Assembly: GCF_000022145.1 (NCBI RefSeq)
Contig: NC_011891.1
Coordinates: 744,001 to 808,000, forward strand
Source: Anaeromyxobacter dehalogenans 2CP-1
GTDB taxonomy: Bacteria; Myxococcota; Myxococcia; Myxococcales; Anaeromyxobacteraceae
Length of the DNA stretch: 64,000 nucleotides
Reading direction: 5' to 3'
Of the stretch, positions 1,376 through 10,044 are shown piece by piece. A program made the position numbers and the translations under genes. The notes under the pieces were generated by a model. The model worked only from the letters and a program-made list of their open reading frames with translations. It searched no databases and was not told the origin of the DNA. The first letter of the stretch is position 1; every line of letters begins with the position of its first letter.

Positions 1376-3103
1376 TCAATGCGAGGCGAGCCGATCGGCG
1401 GCGATCCGCCGCGCTCGCCCGTACGAGGCGGGCGCGATCTCGAGGAACCGGCTGAACAGCGGCCTCGCCTCGTCCGAGCGGTTCGACCCGGACAGCAGCA
1501 TCGCGAGGTTGAAGGTGGCGTCCGGATCGCGAGGGGCGAGGCGGAGCGCCGAGCGCAGCTCCGCCTCCGCCTCGGCACCGCGCCGCTGCGTCAGGAGCAC
1601 GCCCGCGAGCTGCACGTGCGGGAGCGCCGACGCGGGATCCAGCAGCGCGGCTCGACGGAGCGGCGCTTCGGCCTCGCGAAACCGCCCCGCCTCGACCAGC
1701 GCGGTCCCGAGGTTCAGGTTGGGCCGCATCTTGTTCGGGGACTTCGCGGCTGCATCAGTCCAGAGCGCCACGTCGCTCGACCAGACGCGATTCCGGGCCA
1801 GGGTGGCGACCGCGAAGACGCAGGCCAGGCCGATCCCCGCCAGTGCGGCGGCACGCGGCGCGACGTCTGCCCCGACTGCCCGGCGCGCGGCGAGCAGGAT
1901 CCCGATCGCGGCAGCGACGAAGAAGCCGACGGAGGGCAGGTAGACGCGGTGCTCGTTGATCACGTCCACGATGGGGATGACGCTCGACTCGACGGCGAGC
2001 GTCAGGAACCACCACGCGACGCAGAACCCCACCAGCCGGGCCGCGGGATCCGCCGGGCTGCGCGCCTTCCCCGAGGTCCGCGCGTACGCCCACGCTCCGG
2101 CGCACGCGGCCGCGGCGAGGACCGCCAGCCCGGAGCGTACCTCGGGGGCGAAGAACGACCGGTAGATCGGGTAATCGTGGTCGATGTTCTGCCCGACCGG
2201 CACGAGCAGCAGGAACAGGTAGGTGACCACCACGGGTATCTGCGTGATCAGGTACTCGAGGCGGCTGAGATCGGTCTGCACGCGCGTGGCGGCGAGCGTG
2301 GTGCTCGCCACGTCCGCGCCACCGCCCGCTGTCGCGGTGAGGAGGACCGTGAGTGGAATGATCGCCGCGGTGGTGAGGATGGGCCAGAGGCGCCGGAGCC
2401 GCCGGCCGTCCGGCTCGAAGAACGTGAGCTCGTACAGGGCGATCGCGAAGGGCAGCGTGAACGCGATCTCCTTCGTCCTCATCGCGAGCACCGCGCACGC
2501 GAGCATCCCGGCGTATGCGGCCGGGCGGCCCCAGCGGTGCCGCGTCGCGTCCATCAGCCGCCAGCGCGCGTAGAGAGCCACGGCGCCTAGGTAGAATAGC
2601 GCAGCCAGCGAGGTCATCCGCTGGACGACGTAGGTAACCGCCTGGGTCTGCAGCGGGTGCGCGACGAAGAGCGCCGCGGCGACGAGGCCGACCGTGCTCG
2701 CCTGGGCCGCCAGGGCCGATCGCGCGAGGCGCGGCGTACGGAACGCGGCGATCACCAGCGCGTACACCAGCGTCGCCGTGAGCAGGTGCATTGCGACGTT
2801 CACCGCGTGAAAGCCGACCGGGTCACTCCCGCCGAACCGGTAGTTCAGCGCGAACGACAGGTAGGCGATGCTGCGGCTCGGGAGCGCACGCCATCCACCG
2901 CCGTTCCAGCCGAAGGCCGAGGGGTTCCGAACGATCGGGTTGTCGCGGACGTGATCGACATCATCGAACACGAACGCACTGTGCCAGGCGTTCGCGTAGG
3001 CGGCGAGGCCCAGCAGGATCACCGCGACGACGGCGGCGAGGTGGGCGGAGGGTCGGATGGTCCCGCCGACGCGGGCGTCCGGCGCGTCGCCGGCGTGCGT
3101 CAA
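1376..3103 (-). CDS. Polytopic GT-C/TMTC-like membrane protein with C-terminal TPRs
   Basis: The product has 575 residues with a TTG start overlapping the TGA of the upstream permease (TTGA). There is no ATG upstream, and this junction keeps the gene coupled. Residues about 18-400 are a multi-helix membrane region. It starts with a helix, then the acidic motif FVFDDVDHVRDNP, the place where GT-C glycosyltransferases (PMT/TMTC) carry their catalytic DD/DE loop. Residues about 430-575 are tetratricopeptide repeats (NLGTALVEAGRFREAEAPL, then two more units). TMTC-like enzymes transfer sugars from polyprenyl donors to proteins. Between pilI and the minor pilins, a role in modifying pilins or another surface protein is plausible but not proven. 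Confidence 0.7.
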   Translation of the reverse strand: MTHAGDAPDARVGGTIRPSAHLAAVVAVILLGLAAYANAWHSAFVFDDVDHVRDNPIVRNPSAFGWNGGGWRALPSRSIAYLSFALNYRFGGSDPVGFHAVNVAMHLLTATLVYALVIAAFRTPRLARSALAAQASTVGLVAAALFVAHPLQTQAVTYVVQRMTSLAALFYLGAVALYARWRLMDATRHRWGRPAAYAGMLACAVLAMRTKEIAFTLPFAIALYELTFFEPDGRRLRRLWPILTTAAIIPLTVLLTATAGGGADVASTTLAATRVQTDLSRLEYLITQIPVVVTYLFLLLVPVGQNIDHDYPIYRSFFAPEVRSGLAVLAAAACAGAWAYARTSGKARSPADPAARLVGFCVAWWFLTLAVESSVIPIVDVINEHRVYLPSVGFFVAAAIGILLAARRAVGADVAPRAAALAGIGLACVFAVATLARNRVWSSDVALWTDAAAKSPNKMRPNLNLGTALVEAGRFREAEAPLRRAALLDPASALPHVQLAGVLLTQRRGAEAEAELRSALRLAPRDPDATFNLAMLLSGSNRSDEARPLFSRFLEIAPASYGRARRIAADRLASH

Positions 3104-3858
3104 CGGAAATCCCGGCGCTCGAAAGCAGCCGCCGCCAGCGCGAGCACCGCGCCGGCGTAGAGCAGCGCGTACGCGCTCGCGAGCCACGCCGAGGCCGGCG
3201 GCGCCACGCGGTAGATGACCTCCGCGTTGAGCGAGAGCGCGGAGAGATTGGGCAGGACATACCAGAGCGCCTTGCCTACCCCGGACCCAGCGCCTTCCCA
3301 GAGCGTGCGGAGGTCGTTCGACAGGTGGCCGGCGATGGTGACGGCGAGCGAGAAGATCGCGGCGAGCGTCGGCGTCGTGATGCACGAGAACAGCACGGCG
3401 ACCGCGGCCACCACGAGGAACTGCACCCCCATCATGAAGAACGCAGAGAGCAGCGCGTGATCGATTGGCGCCAGCGACCCGGCGTCCCAGCACAGCAGCG
3501 CGGCCAGCGTGGCCGCCATGACCGCCATGTTGAGCCAGAGCGTCGCCCCGAGCCCGAGGTACCGGCCGAGCAGGTACTGCGCGCGCGAGACCGGCTTCGC
3601 GACCAAGGGGTACACCACGCGCCGCTCGACGTCGCCGGCGATCAGGCCCGCACCGAGGAACACCGCCGTCAACGATCCCATCACCTCCATGGCCGTCAGG
3701 CCCAGGTCGGCGGCGATCCGGTGCGTATAGCCGACGGTGAGAAGCGACGCGACGGAGCTGCCCGCGAGTAGCAGCAGCGCGAACAGCAGCAGGTTCACCT
3801 GCAGTCGCCGCCGCAGCGCCTCCTTCAGGGTCACCTGCGCGATCGACAGAACCTTCAC
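3100..3858 (-). CDS. pilI: ABC-2 type transporter permease, PilI-like
   Basis: The product has 252 residues and about six hydrophobic segments. It begins MKVLSIAQVTLKEALRRR, the N-terminal amphipathic start of ABC-2 permeases, followed by helices near 20-40, 58-75, 105-125, 140-165, 180-200 and 220-245. The start ATG overlaps the stop of the TPR gene (ATGA), and its own stop overlaps the TTG of the next gene. In the M. xanthus pil cluster pilG, pilH and pilI lie between pilA and pilD and encode an accessory protein and an ABC transporter needed for pilus production. This gene sits in the matching place. The cognate ATPase is most likely the divergent gene at 5675. The ABC-2 family call is secure; the pilI name rests on synteny. 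Confidence 0.8.
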   Translation of the reverse strand: MKVLSIAQVTLKEALRRRLQVNLLLFALLLLAGSSVASLLTVGYTHRIAADLGLTAMEVMGSLTAVFLGAGLIAGDVERRVVYPLVAKPVSRAQYLLGRYLGLGATLWLNMAVMAATLAALLCWDAGSLAPIDHALLSAFFMMGVQFLVVAAVAVLFSCITTPTLAAIFSLAVTIAGHLSNDLRTLWEGAGSGVGKALWYVLPNLSALSLNAEVIYRVAPPASAWLASAYALLYAGAVLALAAAAFERRDFR

Positions 3859-4793
3859 TGCAACCTCCCTGCGTCGGCCCTTTGCTGCTGCCCGCGGATG
3901 AGCGCCTCGCGCTCCTCGCTCGTCGGCGGCCGCTGCAGGCGCCGCGCGCTCGCGGTGGAGCGAACCAGACCATCCGCGCCGAGGTAGTAGTCGCCGCCGA
4001 ACGGATCCGGGGGAATGCCGGCGAGGATCCCCGCACGCTCGAGTTGGGCGAGCGCGATCGGCGGAAATCCGTGTTGCGCCTCGAAGGCATGCGCCGCTTC
4101 CTCGAGGATCGCGGCGTCGCGCTCGAGGATGGCCTGGTCGAGCTGCTTCCGGAGCGCGGTCCGCGACTCATCGTCCTCGGCCCGCTCGTACAGGTGCGTG
4201 AGAAACCGAACGGCGGCCTCTGGGGCGTCGCCCTTCACGTACATGGCCGAGACGTACTCGGTCAGGTGGGGCGGCGCGTTCGGCCGCCGCGAGGCGACCT
4301 CGAACCAGCGCGCCGCGGCCGCGTAGTCGCCATCGTACAGGAACGCGTTCACTGCACGGTGGAAGGGGATGATGTAGCGGTCGGGGACGTTCCGGGTCCC
4401 CTTCTCGAGCAACGCGTTCGACTCTGCCACGCGCGCCTCGCTGGCGAGTACGTTGCCGCCCACCTGATAGACGTAGCCGTGTCGCGGGTCGAGGTCGGTG
4501 ATCAGGTCCAGGACCGGGAAGAGCCGCTCCCAGCCTCGCGCGGCGGCCCGCGGCTCGCCCATGTACTGGACCGCCTTCAGCCACCAGACGTTCGCCGCGA
4601 GCGTCGGATGCCCCGCAGAGGAAAGGCGCAGCGCCGCGGCGCGGGGCACGTAGTCGAAATCGTAGGGGCGCTGCTGCGCGACAGCGATTCGCGACGCAGC
4701 CAGCGCGGCCGCCGCCGCGAGCATGACTGCCAGTCCGAGATATGCGAGTGCGCGTCGTGGCAAGGTGGAGACTGGAAAGGGCAGCGCCCCCAT
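3855..4793 (-). CDS. pilG: Membrane-anchored TPR-type protein, PilG-like
   Basis: The product has 312 residues if it starts at the ATG at 4791-4793. A TTG about 30 bases downstream is an alternative. Residues about 10-30 form one hydrophobic anchor (ALAYLGLAVMLAAAAALAA), followed by a helical-repeat domain. WWLKAVQYMGE and DLDPRHGYVYQVGGN resemble degenerate TPRs. The C-terminus carries a DPFGGDYYLGADG segment. It is the first gene after pilA and overlaps the permease gene by four bases, the place of M. xanthus pilG, whose loss blocks pilus formation. The chosen ATG lies inside the loop of the pilA/pilG hairpin (4779-4813), which may limit its translation. The name is based on position and general features. 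Confidence 0.72.
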   Translation of the reverse strand: MGALPFPVSTLPRRALAYLGLAVMLAAAAALAASRIAVAQQRPYDFDYVPRAAALRLSSAGHPTLAANVWWLKAVQYMGEPRAAARGWERLFPVLDLITDLDPRHGYVYQVGGNVLASEARVAESNALLEKGTRNVPDRYIIPFHRAVNAFLYDGDYAAAARWFEVASRRPNAPPHLTEYVSAMYVKGDAPEAAVRFLTHLYERAEDDESRTALRKQLDQAILERDAAILEEAAHAFEAQHGFPPIALAQLERAGILAGIPPDPFGGDYYLGADGLVRSTASARRLQRPPTSEEREALIRGQQQRADAGRLQ

Positions 4794-4828: not shown

Positions 4829-5416
4829 CTAGAACGCGGTCTCGTTCGCGACGATCGGCTGGCCCATCGGGAGATCGCCGGTAGCCGCCGGGAACGGGTC
4901 CGCGCCCACACATTCCGCGTCAGCGTTGACCCCGCCACTCATCGGTTCGCCGTCGCTGCCGAGCGTGGCCTTGTAGAGGTACACACAGCCGGCCGCGTCG
5001 TTGCCGTCGATGTTGGACACCGCATAGGTGGTGAGGTGCAGGCCGTACGGGGCCGTGCCGCCCCCGGTGGCGACGCGGTAGCAGCCGTAGGTCGCGCCCT
5101 CGACGGACCAGTCGATCTTCGCCGCCTCGGTCATGTCGCCCGCGAGCCACGGATGCTTCACGGTGCCGGCAGCGCCGGCGATGTCGCAGGTGGCCGGCAG
5201 GTCGGCGAGCGCCATGTACTGACCGCCCGAGCGCTCCGTCTGACGCAGCGCCTCCTCCGACTTGAAGACGCTGTTCACGTTCTCCTTCAGCTCGCTGAAC
5301 TTCGCGCGGAGCTGGTAGCGGAGGAAGTTCGGGATGGCGATCGCGGCGAGGATCCCGATGATCGCGACGACGATCATGAGCTCGATGAGGGTGAAGCCCT
5401 TGGCAGCCTTCTTCAT
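4829..5416 (-). CDS. pilA: PilA, major type IVa pilin
   Basis: The product has 195 residues. The ATG at 5414-5416 follows a good GGAGG and gives a seven-residue leader (MKKAAKG) before FTLIELMIVVAIIGILAA with Glu at +5, the class III signal cut and N-methylated by PilD. A Pro kink (AIPNFLRYQLRAKFSE) follows, as in T4a pilins. The globular part carries four cysteines (CDIAG, YGCYR, AGCVY, AECVG), enough for two disulfides. It is the structural subunit of the retractile pilus used for adhesion and twitching-type motility. A sigma-54 promoter lies 75 bases upstream of the start codon with a palindrome about 110-130 bases upstream of the predicted start site. The sensor-regulator pair pilS/pilR is divergent at 7537-10044. 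Transcription continues into pilG/pilI through a hairpin. Confidence 0.95.
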   Translation of the reverse strand: MKKAAKGFTLIELMIVVAIIGILAAIAIPNFLRYQLRAKFSELKENVNSVFKSEEALRQTERSGGQYMALADLPATCDIAGAAGTVKHPWLAGDMTEAAKIDWSVEGATYGCYRVATGGGTAPYGLHLTTYAVSNIDGNDAAGCVYLYKATLGSDGEPMSGGVNADAECVGADPFPAATGDLPMGQPIVANETAF

Positions 5417-5501
5417 GAGACCTCCGGAGATGTGGGCCGCGGTGTGAGCCTCGCGGCCCCGCGGACCGGGCTGTGATGGCCGCCCGGCGGAGGAGCTGCC
5501 T

Positions 5502-5517
5502 AGCATCGGGGGTGCCA
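5502..5517 (-). promoter_or_regulatory. Sigma-54 (-24/-12) promoter of pilA
   Basis: Read on the minus strand it is TGGCACCCCCGATGCT. TGGCAC is the perfect -24 box, and GG to GC spacing is exactly ten bases. The -12 box is ATGCT against the consensus TTGCT. The predicted start is near 5491, giving a leader of about 75 bases. PilA genes in Myxococcus, Pseudomonas and Geobacter are known to use RpoN with PilR, and PilR is encoded at 8668. Confidence 0.85.
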
Positions 5518-5598
5518 GCGGCCAGGCGTCCGCAAGCGCGCGATCCGAGGCGCCAGGGTGGGACGCCGGGTGACGGAACGCGGCGCCCGGCCCGGGTC

Positions 5599-5619
5599 CG
5601 GTGACGTTTTTCGTCACCG
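5599..5619. promoter_or_regulatory. Perfect palindrome, candidate enhancer site for PilR upstream of pilA
   Basis: CGGTGACG, five T, CGTCACCG: a perfect 8-bp inverted repeat. It lies about 108-128 bases upstream of the predicted pilA start site, the distance usual for enhancer sites of NtrC-family activators. It is also about 20 bases upstream of the pilH -35 box, so one protein could act on both divergent promoters. No protein-binding data are implied. Confidence 0.55.
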
Positions 5620-5637: not shown

Positions 5638-5666
5638 TTGACAGGGGCCAGGACCCCGCCGATCAT
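5638..5666 (+). promoter_or_regulatory. Sigma-70-type promoter of pilH, leaderless geometry
   Basis: TTGACA (perfect) at 5638-5643, a 17-base spacer, then GATCAT at 5661-5666. The start site would fall at about 5673, one or two bases before the ATG at 5675. No Shine-Dalgarno is seen. Divergent from pilA. Confidence 0.6.
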
Positions 5667-5674
5667 CCGCGGCG

Positions 5675-6631
5675 ATGATCCTGAGGACGGAGAAGCTGAC
5701 GAAGGTGTTCGAGGTGGGCCTGCTCGCGCGCAAGGTCACCGCCGTGGACGCGCTGGATCTCGAGGTCGCCCCCGGAGAGATCTTCGGGTTCGTCGGCCCG
5801 AACGGCGCTGGCAAGACGACCACGATCAAGATGCTGATGGGGCTCATCTACCCGACCAGCGGGCGCGCCTCGATCTTCGACGATCCCATCCCCAGCCGGC
5901 GCGCCAAGGCGCGCATCGGCTATCTCCCGGAGCACCCGGCCTACTACGAATTCCTGACCGGTCGTGAGGCGCTCCACTTCTTCGCGAAGCTCTCCGACGT
6001 CCCGGGCGCCGAGCGCGAGCGCCGCTGCGACGAGCTGCTCGAGTTGGTCGGGCTGAGCGCGGCCGCCGATCGCCAGATCCGGAAGTACTCGAAGGGCATG
6101 CAGCAGCGGCTCGGCATCGCGCAGGCGCTGGTGGGCGATCCGGCGCTGGTGGTGCTGGACGAGCCCATGAGCGGGCTCGACCCCGTCGGCCGCAAGGACG
6201 TGCGGGACCTCATCCTCGAGCTGAAGCGCCGCGGCAAGACCGTGTTCTTCTCCACGCACATCCTCCCGGACGTCGAGAGCCTGTGCGACCGGGTCGGCGT
6301 GATCCTGCGCGGCAAGCTGCGCGACGTCGGGCGCATCGACGAGCTGCTCTCCGGGAACGTGCGCGCGGTGGAGCTGACCGCGGCGGTCCCTGCCGCAGCC
6401 CGCGAGGCGCTGTCGCACGGGAAGCTCCTGCGCGCCGACGGCGACCGCCTCACGGTGGTGTTCGACGACGCGCTCGCCGCCGACGCGGCGGTGGGCGCGG
6501 TGGTGCGCGCGGGCGGCAAGGTGATCGCGCTCACGCCGCACCGCGACACCCTCGAGGACTTCTTCGTCCGCCGCCTGACCGAGGTGCACGGCGCGGAGGC
6601 GGAGCCGGCGGCAGCCGCCGGAGGCGCCTAG
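5675..6631 (+). CDS. pilH: ABC transporter ATP-binding protein, PilH-like
   Basis: The product has 318 residues. The nucleotide-binding domain spans about 1-230: Walker A GPNGAGKTT, Q-loop near YLPEHPAYYEF, signature YSKGMQQRLGIAQAL, Walker B LVVLDEP and H-loop FFSTH. About 80 C-terminal residues of the DUF4162 type found in CcmA/NatA-like ATPases follow. It is divergent from pilA and immediately precedes pilD, matching the pilH position in M. xanthus. The likely permease partner is the PilI-like protein encoded on the other strand at 3100. The substrate is unknown. The ATPase family is certain; the name rests on neighbourhood. Confidence 0.85.
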   Translation: MILRTEKLTKVFEVGLLARKVTAVDALDLEVAPGEIFGFVGPNGAGKTTTIKMLMGLIYPTSGRASIFDDPIPSRRAKARIGYLPEHPAYYEFLTGREALHFFAKLSDVPGAERERRCDELLELVGLSAAADRQIRKYSKGMQQRLGIAQALVGDPALVVLDEPMSGLDPVGRKDVRDLILELKRRGKTVFFSTHILPDVESLCDRVGVILRGKLRDVGRIDELLSGNVRAVELTAAVPAAAREALSHGKLLRADGDRLTVVFDDALAADAAVGAVVRAGGKVIALTPHRDTLEDFFVRRLTEVHGAEAEPAAAAGGA

Positions 6632-7536: not shown

Positions 7537-8658
7537 ATGCGGCGCGTGGGCCTGGTGCTCCTGCTCGATCTCGTCGCCGCCGCGGCGGCGGGCGCGACGC
7601 TCCTGCTCGCGCTGGGGGTTCCCTCCGCGGCCCGCGGCGCGCTCGGCCCCGGGCCGCTGCTGCTCCTGGCGGGCGTCGCCGCGGCGGCGACCATCGCCGT
7701 GGGCGTGGTGCTGCTCGGCCGCTCGGTGGCCCGGCCCGTGGAACGGCTGCTCGCGTCCGCGCAGAGGCTCGGCCACGCCGGCGGCGGCCTGCCGGTGCTC
7801 GCGCCGCCGGGCGAGCCGGAGGATCGCTCACTCGCGCGCGCGGCGGTGGCCTTCGAGCGCGTGGCCGAGGCGCTCTCGGAGGAGCGCGCCCGCCTCGCGG
7901 CCAAGATCGACGAGCTGGAGGGCGCGAACCACGCGCTCGCGGAGGCGCGCGCGTCCTGGCTCCGCTCCGAGCAGCTCGCCGCAGTGGGGCGGCTCGCGTC
8001 GGGGGTGGCCCATGAGGTGGGCAACCCGCTCGGCGCCATCGCGGGCTACGCCGAGCTGGCGCGCGGCCGCATCCGAGCGGGCGAGGCGGCGCAGGCCGAC
8101 GACCTGGTGGCGCGGATCGCGGTGGAGGCCGGGCGCATCGACGCGATCGTGCGCGATCTCCTGGAGCTGGCGCGCCCCTCGGCGCCCGCGGTCGCGCCGA
8201 TCGCGCTGTCCGGGCCGGTGGACGCGGCGCTGCGGCTCGCGCGCGTGCAGGCGCGGCTCCGGGACGTGCGCGCCGAGCTCGACCTGCCGGCCGACCTCCC
8301 GCCGGTGCTCGCGGACGAGGCGCGGCTCGCGCAGGTGTTCCTCAACCTGTTCCTGAACGCGGGCGACGCCATGGGCGGCCGCGGCACGCTCCGCGTGACG
8401 GCGCGTGAGGTGCAGGATCGGGTGGAGATCGACGTCGCCGATCAAGGGCCCGGCATCGGACCGGAGGACCTGCCGCGCGTCTTCGATCCGTTCTTCACCA
8501 CCAAGCCGCCCGGCGCCGGAACCGGCCTCGGGCTGTCGGTGAGCCACCGCCTGATGGAGGCGATGGGCGGCGCCATCTCCGCCGCCAACGCGCCGGGCGG
8601 CGGGGCGGTGTTCCGCCTGCGGCTGCGGCGCGGCGGCCCGCCCGCCGCCCCGTGCTAG
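7537..8658 (+). CDS. pilS: Sensor histidine kinase PilS
   Basis: The product has 373 residues. There are two N-terminal helices (about 1-24 and 33-58) with almost no periplasmic loop, then a HAMP-like stretch (ARPVERLLASAQRLG). The dimerisation domain has the H-box VAHEVGNPLGAI with the phospho-acceptor H159. The HATPase domain has an N-box (LNLFLNAGDAMGG), G1 DQGPGIG, F-box FDPFFTTKPPG and G2 GTGLGL. The ATG comes four bases after the pilD stop and the gene runs to ten bases before pilR. PilS sits in the inner membrane and is thought to sense pilin levels and control PilR phosphorylation. Two helices is short for PilS, which has six in Pseudomonas. Confidence 0.88.
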   Translation: MRRVGLVLLLDLVAAAAAGATLLLALGVPSAARGALGPGPLLLLAGVAAAATIAVGVVLLGRSVARPVERLLASAQRLGHAGGGLPVLAPPGEPEDRSLARAAVAFERVAEALSEERARLAAKIDELEGANHALAEARASWLRSEQLAAVGRLASGVAHEVGNPLGAIAGYAELARGRIRAGEAAQADDLVARIAVEAGRIDAIVRDLLELARPSAPAVAPIALSGPVDAALRLARVQARLRDVRAELDLPADLPPVLADEARLAQVFLNLFLNAGDAMGGRGTLRVTAREVQDRVEIDVADQGPGIGPEDLPRVFDPFFTTKPPGAGTGLGLSVSHRLMEAMGGAISAANAPGGGAVFRLRLRRGGPPAAPC

Positions 8659-8667
8659 AGTCGCGCC

Positions 8668-10044
8668 GTGGGCTTGCGAAACGTCCTCGTCGTGGACGAC
8701 GAGGCCTCCATCCGTCACCTGCTCTCCGTGATCCTGGTGGACCACGGCTACGACCCGCGCGCCGTCGCGACCGGCGAGGAGGCGCTGAAGGAGCTCGCCG
8801 TCCGCGAGTACGATCTCGTGCTCACCGACGTGCGCATGCCCGGGATGGGCGGGCTCGGGCTGCTCCGCGAGATCCAGCGCACCGCGCCCGAGCTGATGGT
8901 CATCGTGATGAGCGCCTACGGCGCGCACGACGCGGCCATCGAGGCGATGAAGACCGGCGCCTACGACTACCTCTCGAAGCCGTTCAAGCCGGACGAGGTG
9001 GTGCTGGTGCTCCGCAAGGCGGAGGAGCGCGAGCGGCTGGCGCGCGAGAACCGCCGGCTGCGCACCGAGCTGTCGGCCGGGTACAGCCCGGAGCACATGG
9101 TGGGGACCTCCGAGCCGATGCGCGAGGTGTCCCGGCAGATCCGCAAGATCGCGCAGCAGAAGACCACCGTGCTGGTGCAGGGCGAGTCGGGCACCGGGAA
9201 GGAGCTGGTGGCGCGCGCCATCCACCAGCTCTCTCCGCGCGCGGCCCTCCCGTTCGTGGCGGTCAACTGCGGGGCCATCCCCCCGGAGCTGATCGAGTCC
9301 GAGCTGTTCGGGCACGTGAAGGGCGCCTTCACCGACGCGATCCGGGCGAAGAAGGGGCTCGCGGTCGAGGCGGACGGCGGGACGCTGTTCCTGGACGAGA
9401 TCGGCGAGCTGCCGCTCGGGCTCCAGGTGAAGCTGCTGCGCTTCCTCCAGGAGGAGGAGGTGCGGCCGGTGGGCGACACCCGCCTCCGCCGCGTGGACGT
9501 GCGCGTCATCGCCGCGACCGCGGTCGATCTCCGCGCCGCCGTGGCGGCGGGGCGGTTCCGGGAGGATCTCTACTGGCGCCTCGACGTGGTCGGGGTGCGC
9601 CTCCCGCCGCTGCGGGAGCGGCGGGAGGACGTCCCCGCGCTGCTGGACCACTTCCTGGCCCGGTTCCGCCACCTCCGCCCGGAGCTGCCCGGGCTGGCGC
9701 TGTCGGACGAGGCTCGCGCGGCCCTGCTCGCCCACGGCTGGCCCGGCAACGTGCGCGAGCTGGAGCACGCGGTGGAGCGGGCGGTGGTGCTCGCCGACGG
9801 GCCGGTGCTGCGCGAGGAGGACCTGCCCGAGACGGTGCGCGCGACCGCGCGCCCCGCGACCGGGCCGGCCGAGGCCGGCGCCGAGGGCTCCCTCTCCGTG
9901 AAGCGTGCCACCCGTGCGCTGGAGGAGCGGCTCATCCGCGCGGCGCTGGAGCGGACCGGCGGCAACCGCACCCGGGCCGCCGAGCTGCTGGAGCTCTCCT
10001 ACGGGGCGCTCCTCTACAAGATCAAGGAGTACGGGGTCGGATAG
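8668..10044 (+). CDS. pilR: Sigma-54-dependent response regulator PilR
   Basis: The product has 458 residues with a GTG start. The receiver domain (about 3-120) starts VLVVDDEAS and has the phospho-acceptor Asp in LTDVRMPG. The AAA+ domain (about 145-380) has Walker A GESGTGKE, Walker B GGTLFLDEIGEL and the arginine-finger region FREDLYWRL. The sigma-54 contact loop at residues 219-224 reads GAFTDA instead of GAFTGA. The Fis-type helix-turn-helix is at the C-terminus (GNRTRAAELLELSYGALLYKI). It is the expected activator of the sigma-54 promoter at 5502-5517. A TAGAGT box (8656-8661) overlapping the pilS stop ends seven bases before the GTG, so PilR may also have its own leaderless transcript. 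Confidence 0.92.
   Translation: MGLRNVLVVDDEASIRHLLSVILVDHGYDPRAVATGEEALKELAVREYDLVLTDVRMPGMGGLGLLREIQRTAPELMVIVMSAYGAHDAAIEAMKTGAYDYLSKPFKPDEVVLVLRKAEERERLARENRRLRTELSAGYSPEHMVGTSEPMREVSRQIRKIAQQKTTVLVQGESGTGKELVARAIHQLSPRAALPFVAVNCGAIPPELIESELFGHVKGAFTDAIRAKKGLAVEADGGTLFLDEIGELPLGLQVKLLRFLQEEEVRPVGDTRLRRVDVRVIAATAVDLRAAVAAGRFREDLYWRLDVVGVRLPPLRERREDVPALLDHFLARFRHLRPELPGLALSDEARAALLAHGWPGNVRELEHAVERAVVLADGPVLREEDLPETVRATARPATGPAEAGAEGSLSVKRATRALEERLIRAALERTGGNRTRAAELLELSYGALLYKIKEYGVG

Follow-up and report, generated by a model that had tools for sequence, protein, structure and literature searches.

The predicted sigma-54 control region of pilA in Anaeromyxobacter dehalogenans 2CP-1 is conserved, carries two putative regulator sites and lies back to back with a separate predicted pilH promoter

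The window analysed here, a 64 kb stretch of the A. dehalogenans 2CP-1 genome, contains a type IV pilus locus in which pilA and pilH diverge from an intergenic region of 258 bp. On the minus strand pilA comes first and is followed by pilG and pilI; pilH lies on the plus strand. The genes are as follows.

3100-3858, minus strand: pilI, an ABC-2 permease gene overlapping pilG (ABC2_membrane_2; tblastn matches adjoin pilH in relatives)
3855-4742, minus strand: pilG-like gene 3′ of pilA, start approximate (in Myxococcus-type loci, tblastn matches of 29-37% lie between pilA and pilH)
4829-5416, minus strand: pilA, major type IV pilin of 195 aa (MKKAAKGFTLIE...; N_methyl Pfam domain, best NCBIfam match typeIV_PilA_Myxo)
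5675-6631, plus strand: pilH, ABC transporter ATPase (ABC_tran Pfam; tblastn matches where relatives have pilH)

The likely start of pilA is the ATG of the MKK sequence, giving a gene of 588 bp in 2CP-1 and 576 bp in the genome G001. pilA of strain 2CP-C has been published with a length of 711 bp (PMC2330069), and an upstream ATG at -135 in G001 opens a frame of exactly this length. As this ATG sits upstream of the sigma-54 box (-101), the published 2CP-C model probably includes the promoter. In 2CP-1 the pilA frame is open upstream through the promoter (4829-5551). On the pilA side of the intergenic region, the following elements were recognized.

5417-5491, minus strand: predicted pilA 5′ leader of 75 nt, from the predicted +1 at 5491 to the ATG at 5416 (deduced from the position of the sigma-54 box, with the C of the -12 GC at 5503 set as -12)
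5502-5517, minus strand: predicted sigma-54 -24/-12 promoter, TGGCACCCCCGATGCT (TGGCAY in 17/17 and TGCW in 16/17 relatives with the divergent layout)
5533-5546, minus strand: IHF-like core GGATC-N6-TTG (WATCAR-N4-TTR) between operator 2 and the -24 box (family conservation; low confidence)
5571-5585, minus strand: putative operator 2, CGCCGCGTTCCGTCA (YGMC-N7-GKCA; 8/8 consensus in 13/17 family genomes)
5599-5619, no strand assigned: putative operator 1, palindrome CGGTGACG-TTTTT-CGTCACCG with a 15-bp core at 5602-5616 (dyad in 17/17 family genomes)

The sigma-54 box reads on the minus strand from 5517 to 5502, with GG at 5516-5515, GC at 5504-5503 and 10 nt in between, which is the perfect -24 box with exact GG-N10-GC spacing announced by the original prediction. 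The -12 half is ATGCT compared with TTGCW and hence one base off, and the sequence agrees with the longer consensus TGGCAC-N5-TTGCW at 10 of 12 positions. One rpoN gene is present in the genome (a single Sigma54_DBD match, 219 bits). Genome-wide statistics were obtained by pattern searches of the single contig of 5,029,329 bp. TGGCAC-N6-TGCW has 21 exact matches in this 5.03 Mb genome and is rarer than its reversed control (60 matches); as stand-alone evidence the box was rejected. All 21 have TGCT as their last four bases, never TGCA; this skew is odd and might mean that TGCA is avoided. Within the predicted leader, a GGGCCGC...GCGGCCC stem (5425-5465) lies just 5′ of the ribosome-binding site; the three closest species share it without a difference, and the other relatives lack it in this form.

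The palindrome at 5599-5619 is an exact 8-5-8 inverted repeat at -108 to -128 relative to the predicted pilA start, as had been claimed. A scan of the window for inverted repeats with perfect arms of 8 bp or more around a loop of 3-8 nt yielded 56 nested matches, among which 5599-5619 alone has an all-A/T loop. With this many perfect inverted repeats in the window, the palindrome was likewise rejected as evidence on its own. The genome has a single exact copy of GGTGACG-N5-CGTCACC. Its near-matches (12 sites with one mismatch, 315 places with up to two), many of them imperfect dyads, were considered as a regulon and discarded, since the composite pattern described below gives pilA only.

Each taken alone, the sigma-54 box and the palindrome are unremarkable in this GC-rich genome, but their combination is not due to chance. 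The composite pattern of TGMC-N7-GKCA, 65-95 nt and TGGCAY-N6-TGCW matched the genome once, at the pilA promoter, and its reversed control did not match. Across the order, the pattern was found in 80 of 136 genomes compared with a handful of control matches, and in approximately 65 of the 80 it lies directly upstream of a pilA, as judged by comparing two tables by hand.

For a closer view of conservation, a whole-genome search with PilH provided a family set of 17 genomes with divergent pilA and pilH. All 17 loci carry the sigma-54 box and a dyad of the TGACG-N5-CGTCA type, mostly perfect, while the remaining intergenic region is poorly conserved. Counted from the end of the dyad core to the T of the -24 box, 15 family genomes have a spacing of 84-88 bp and two a spacing of 95 bp. 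In other families, a TGMC-N7-GKCA dyad is located 73-75 or 84 bp from the -24 box (24 distinct promoters). The clusters of distances are thus offset by single helical turns, which fits an activator confined to one face of the DNA. Loss of the palindrome in relatives had been named as a finding that would speak against the original prediction; instead it is conserved throughout the family and recurs in a related form across the order. This conservation indicates that the sigma-54 box and the palindrome are real, and it supports the proposed layout of a sigma-54 promoter with an upstream enhancer. The stretch upstream of pilA thus appears to be an ancient, conserved sigma-54 control region of known type with two putative regulator sites.

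The second of these sites, operator 2, was overlooked when the control unit was first described as complete. It lies 30-33 bp promoter-proximal of operator 1 in the family, and 31 bp, or three helical turns, in 2CP-1. Besides the 13 genomes with a full score, three have an imperfect site (7/8), so that the operator is counted in 16/17, and in the remaining one, G003, the site is poor (5/8). The summed score was 130 compared with a mean of 82.4 (sd 3.4) for shuffled sequences; the resulting z of 13.9 is indicative only, because the consensus was written after inspecting the alignments, and the shuffles preserve base composition only. Two further family members (G015 and G023) also have a second dyad-like site nearby, and most Myxococcus-type promoters carry two sites, 22-23 bp apart. 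Paired dimer sites are normal for an NtrC-type enhancer, and operators 1 and 2 have the appearance of such a tandem enhancer. Between operator 2 and the promoter, a TTG or TTA approximately 18 nt upstream of the -24 box is present in nearly all genomes of the family, preceded six or seven bases earlier by (A/T)TC, and a similar (A/T)TC-N6-TTG element is seen in Myxococcus-type promoters. Bending of the DNA between an enhancer and a sigma-54 promoter is usually the work of IHF (PMC7962754), and the element at 5533-5546 may, with low confidence, be an IHF site.

Which regulator would act at these operators? PilR had been assumed to be encoded 3 kb away from them. The two-component genes at that place are listed here.

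7537-8658, plus strand: pilS2, histidine kinase (HisKA and HATPase; relatives have PilS2 at the matching position, between pilD and pilR2)
8668-10044, plus strand: pilR2, not pilR, NtrC-type response regulator with recognition helix LSYGALLYKIKEYG (PilR2 clade; Myxococcus-type orthologues between pilD and pilM)

Synteny, phylogeny and the recognition helix all identify the protein of 8668-10044 as PilR2. Its best Myxococcus-type matches lie a few kb from pilA between pilD and pilM, the place of pilR2. The PilR orthologue is encoded at genome positions 735581-736966, 7 kb before the start of the window and approximately 12.5 kb from the pilA promoter, in the order ribF-pilB-pilT-pilC-pilS-pilR. 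The regulator located directly upstream of pilA in a Myxococcus-type genome (L142) has its best 2CP-1 match at 735682-736956 (53%), compared with 46% for the protein in the window. In a maximum-likelihood tree of 69 proteins, PilR (support 100/99) and PilR2 (100/100) form separate clades, and the family PilR groups with the pilA-adjacent regulator of Myxococcus-type genomes (100/99). The two groups have recognition helices that are different along their whole length: L(S/T)FRS(F/L)RYRLAK is common to the family PilR and the Myxococcus-type pilA-adjacent regulator, and PilR2 has (L/I)Sx(R/G)(A/S)L(L/I)YK.

The distribution of the genes points in the same direction. Three genomes of one genus (G089, G108 and G110) contain no close relative of the PilR2 protein of the window (best E approximately 1e-118, 48%); in these, pilD adjoins pilM without pilS2-pilR2 in between, whereas the sister genome G069 has both genes there. 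All three have kept pilS-pilR, with the helix FRSFRYRLAK, and the dyad with the sigma-54 box upstream of pilA. The presence of the operator hence follows that of PilR and not that of PilR2.

This agrees with the genetics of Myxococcus xanthus, where PilR is required for pilA expression (PMC6211767). The pil cluster of M. xanthus has both pilR1S1 and pilR2S2 (PMC6060248). PilR2, which is in effect the regulator originally proposed, is an intact NtrC-type response regulator with a kinase in the same gene cluster, and its M. xanthus counterpart is also needed for pilus-dependent motility (PMC6211767). Its separate clade, its different recognition helix and the three genomes that keep the operator without it nevertheless make PilR2 an unlikely activator at the pilA operators, and PilSR and PilS2R2 of M. 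xanthus act via distinct pathways according to the title of a 2016 study cited in PMC6211767. NmpR was rejected on account of its different half-site and of the finding that the M. xanthus pilA promoter is not bound by NmpR (PMC6211767, PMC11841059). Dozens of related activators are encoded in the genome (38 matches), and another of these could bind the pilA operators; most likely, however, the activator of pilA is the predicted PilR of the pilB-T-C-S-R cluster.

On the opposite strand, a sigma-70-type promoter had been noticed beside the palindrome, and this is supported by its conservation in all 17 genomes.

5638-5643, plus strand: predicted pilH -35 box TTGACA (TTTGAC in 17/17 genomes)
5661-5666, plus strand: predicted pilH -10 box GATCAT after a 17-nt spacer, ending 8 nt before the pilH ATG (conserved in 17/17)

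Every member of the set has TTTGACA (TTTGACT in one), a spacer of 17 or 18 nt and GATCAT or a near form, suggesting that pilH has its own, separate sigma-70-type promoter. From the end of the -10 box it is 6-10 nt to the start codon in all 17, whichever codon serves as the start. The pilH mRNA is therefore predicted to be leaderless or nearly so and to lack a ribosome-binding site. Leaderless transcripts in Anaeromyxobacter received no substantive treatment in the literature searched.

Both promoters share one intergenic region in 17 genomes, and in 2CP-1 operator 1 has its centre approximately 65 bp before the start predicted for pilH, a workable position for an activator or a repressor. A single site that links pilin synthesis with the ABC transporter, controlling pilA through sigma-54 and pilH through sigma-70, had indeed been suggested. 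Such an operator should keep a fixed spacing to both promoters; instead, anything between 8 and 55 bp (sd 15.5) separates the palindrome from the pilH -35 box, compared with an sd of 3.4 for the distance to the pilA box. G002, a genome from the same genus, lacks the divergent layout: pilA, pilG, pilI and pilH run in one direction, yet the palindrome and the sigma-54 box are still in front of pilA. Myxococcus-type genomes, too, have the operator without a divergent pilH. Joint control of both genes from this site is accordingly improbable. The register with the pilA promoter and the layout of G002 show the palindrome to be an element of the pilA promoter, with a possible secondary effect on pilH. 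G002 has also kept TTTGACA-N17-GATCAT (L277 3340-3430); the gene that it faces there encodes a membrane protein of 779 aa and not PilH, and approximately 34 nt separate the -10 box from the start codon of this gene.

A chance inverted repeat, or an RNA hairpin or terminator in place of a protein-binding site, is an extremely unlikely explanation of the palindrome: perfect 8-bp inverted repeats are common in the GC-rich window, but no terminator-like site was found, the half-sites and not the loop are kept at fixed helical spacing in all relatives, and the palindrome lies upstream of both predicted transcription starts and hence in neither RNA.

Taken together, we consider it quite probable that the intergenic region comprises two back-to-back promoters, a PilR-type sigma-54 promoter of pilA with paired operators and an independent promoter of pilH. 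On the pilA side, the sigma-54 promoter would stay closed until an NtrC-type activator acts. The strong operator at 5599-5619 and the weaker one at 5571-5585 would recruit activator dimers to one fixed face of the DNA helix upstream of the promoter, and the activator would then oligomerize and contact the RNA polymerase-sigma-54 complex via looping. This activator would most likely be PilR (genome 735581-736966) and not PilR2 (8668-10044). On the pilH side, the sigma-70-type promoter TTGACA-N17-GATCAT would independently give rise to a leaderless or near-leaderless pilH-pilD transcript. A bolder reading, to which we give little credit, is that a PilR operator code extends across much of the order (paired TGMC/YGMC-N7-GKCA sites approximately 74, 85 or 95 bp from the pilA -24 box) and in the family also tunes the pilH-pilD promoter; if so, one PilR complex would set pilin supply and export machinery from two strands.

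A second combination of dyad and sigma-54-like box, TGACC-N5-GGTCACAGTGT..., was seen in the 2CP-1 genome on the minus strand at genome positions 363677-363780 (L172). It precedes a small secreted protein with a cupredoxin-like sequence, and an NtrC-type activator is encoded approximately 2 kb away. Similar sites are present in G002, G003, G010, G011 and G012, which suggests that they belong to the regulon of another activator.

The analysis turns a guess from one genome into a testable definition of the PilR operator for myxobacteria; none was found in the literature searched, which gives an operator for NmpR. The regulator is corrected as well: experiments on the 'pilR' of the window would in fact address PilR2. 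Pilus research in the genus can directly and cheaply take up two further corrections, the leaderless state predicted for pilH mRNA and the excessive length of the published pilA model.

In comparison with known systems, that the pilA control region is ordinary in kind appears well supported. It resembles the PilS-PilR/sigma-54 control of pilA in M. xanthus and Pseudomonas aeruginosa in combining a sigma-54 pilin promoter with an NtrC-type regulator that would act from upstream sites. The PilR sites of P. aeruginosa have been described otherwise, as TGT-N11-AGA and GTCT elements (PMC6058289). The NmpR regulon of M. xanthus offers a paralogous NtrC-type regulator and two dyad operators with an N5 spacer upstream of sigma-54 boxes (PMC11841059). 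The NmpR site is GCGCA-N5-TGCGC (PMC11841059), however, whereas the half-sites in 2CP-1 are TGAC(G)/GTCA and do not conform to it. With PilS2-PilR2 of M. xanthus (pilR2 = Nla23, MXAN_5777), the genes at 7537-10044 share the place between pilD and pilM and the clade, but it is not PilR2 with which the pilA operator co-occurs. The pilH promoter resembles those of leaderless sigma-70 transcripts in the position of its -10 box in the 17 genomes, a likeness that concerns a predicted transcript. Myxococcus-type promoters differ in that pilA lies directly downstream of pilR, whereas in 2CP-1 it diverges from pilH, with pilR 12.5 kb away, and in the separation of the two sites (22-23 bp compared with 31 bp in 2CP-1). 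They share with 2CP-1 an orthologous regulator, the same kind of dyad and the same helical phase.
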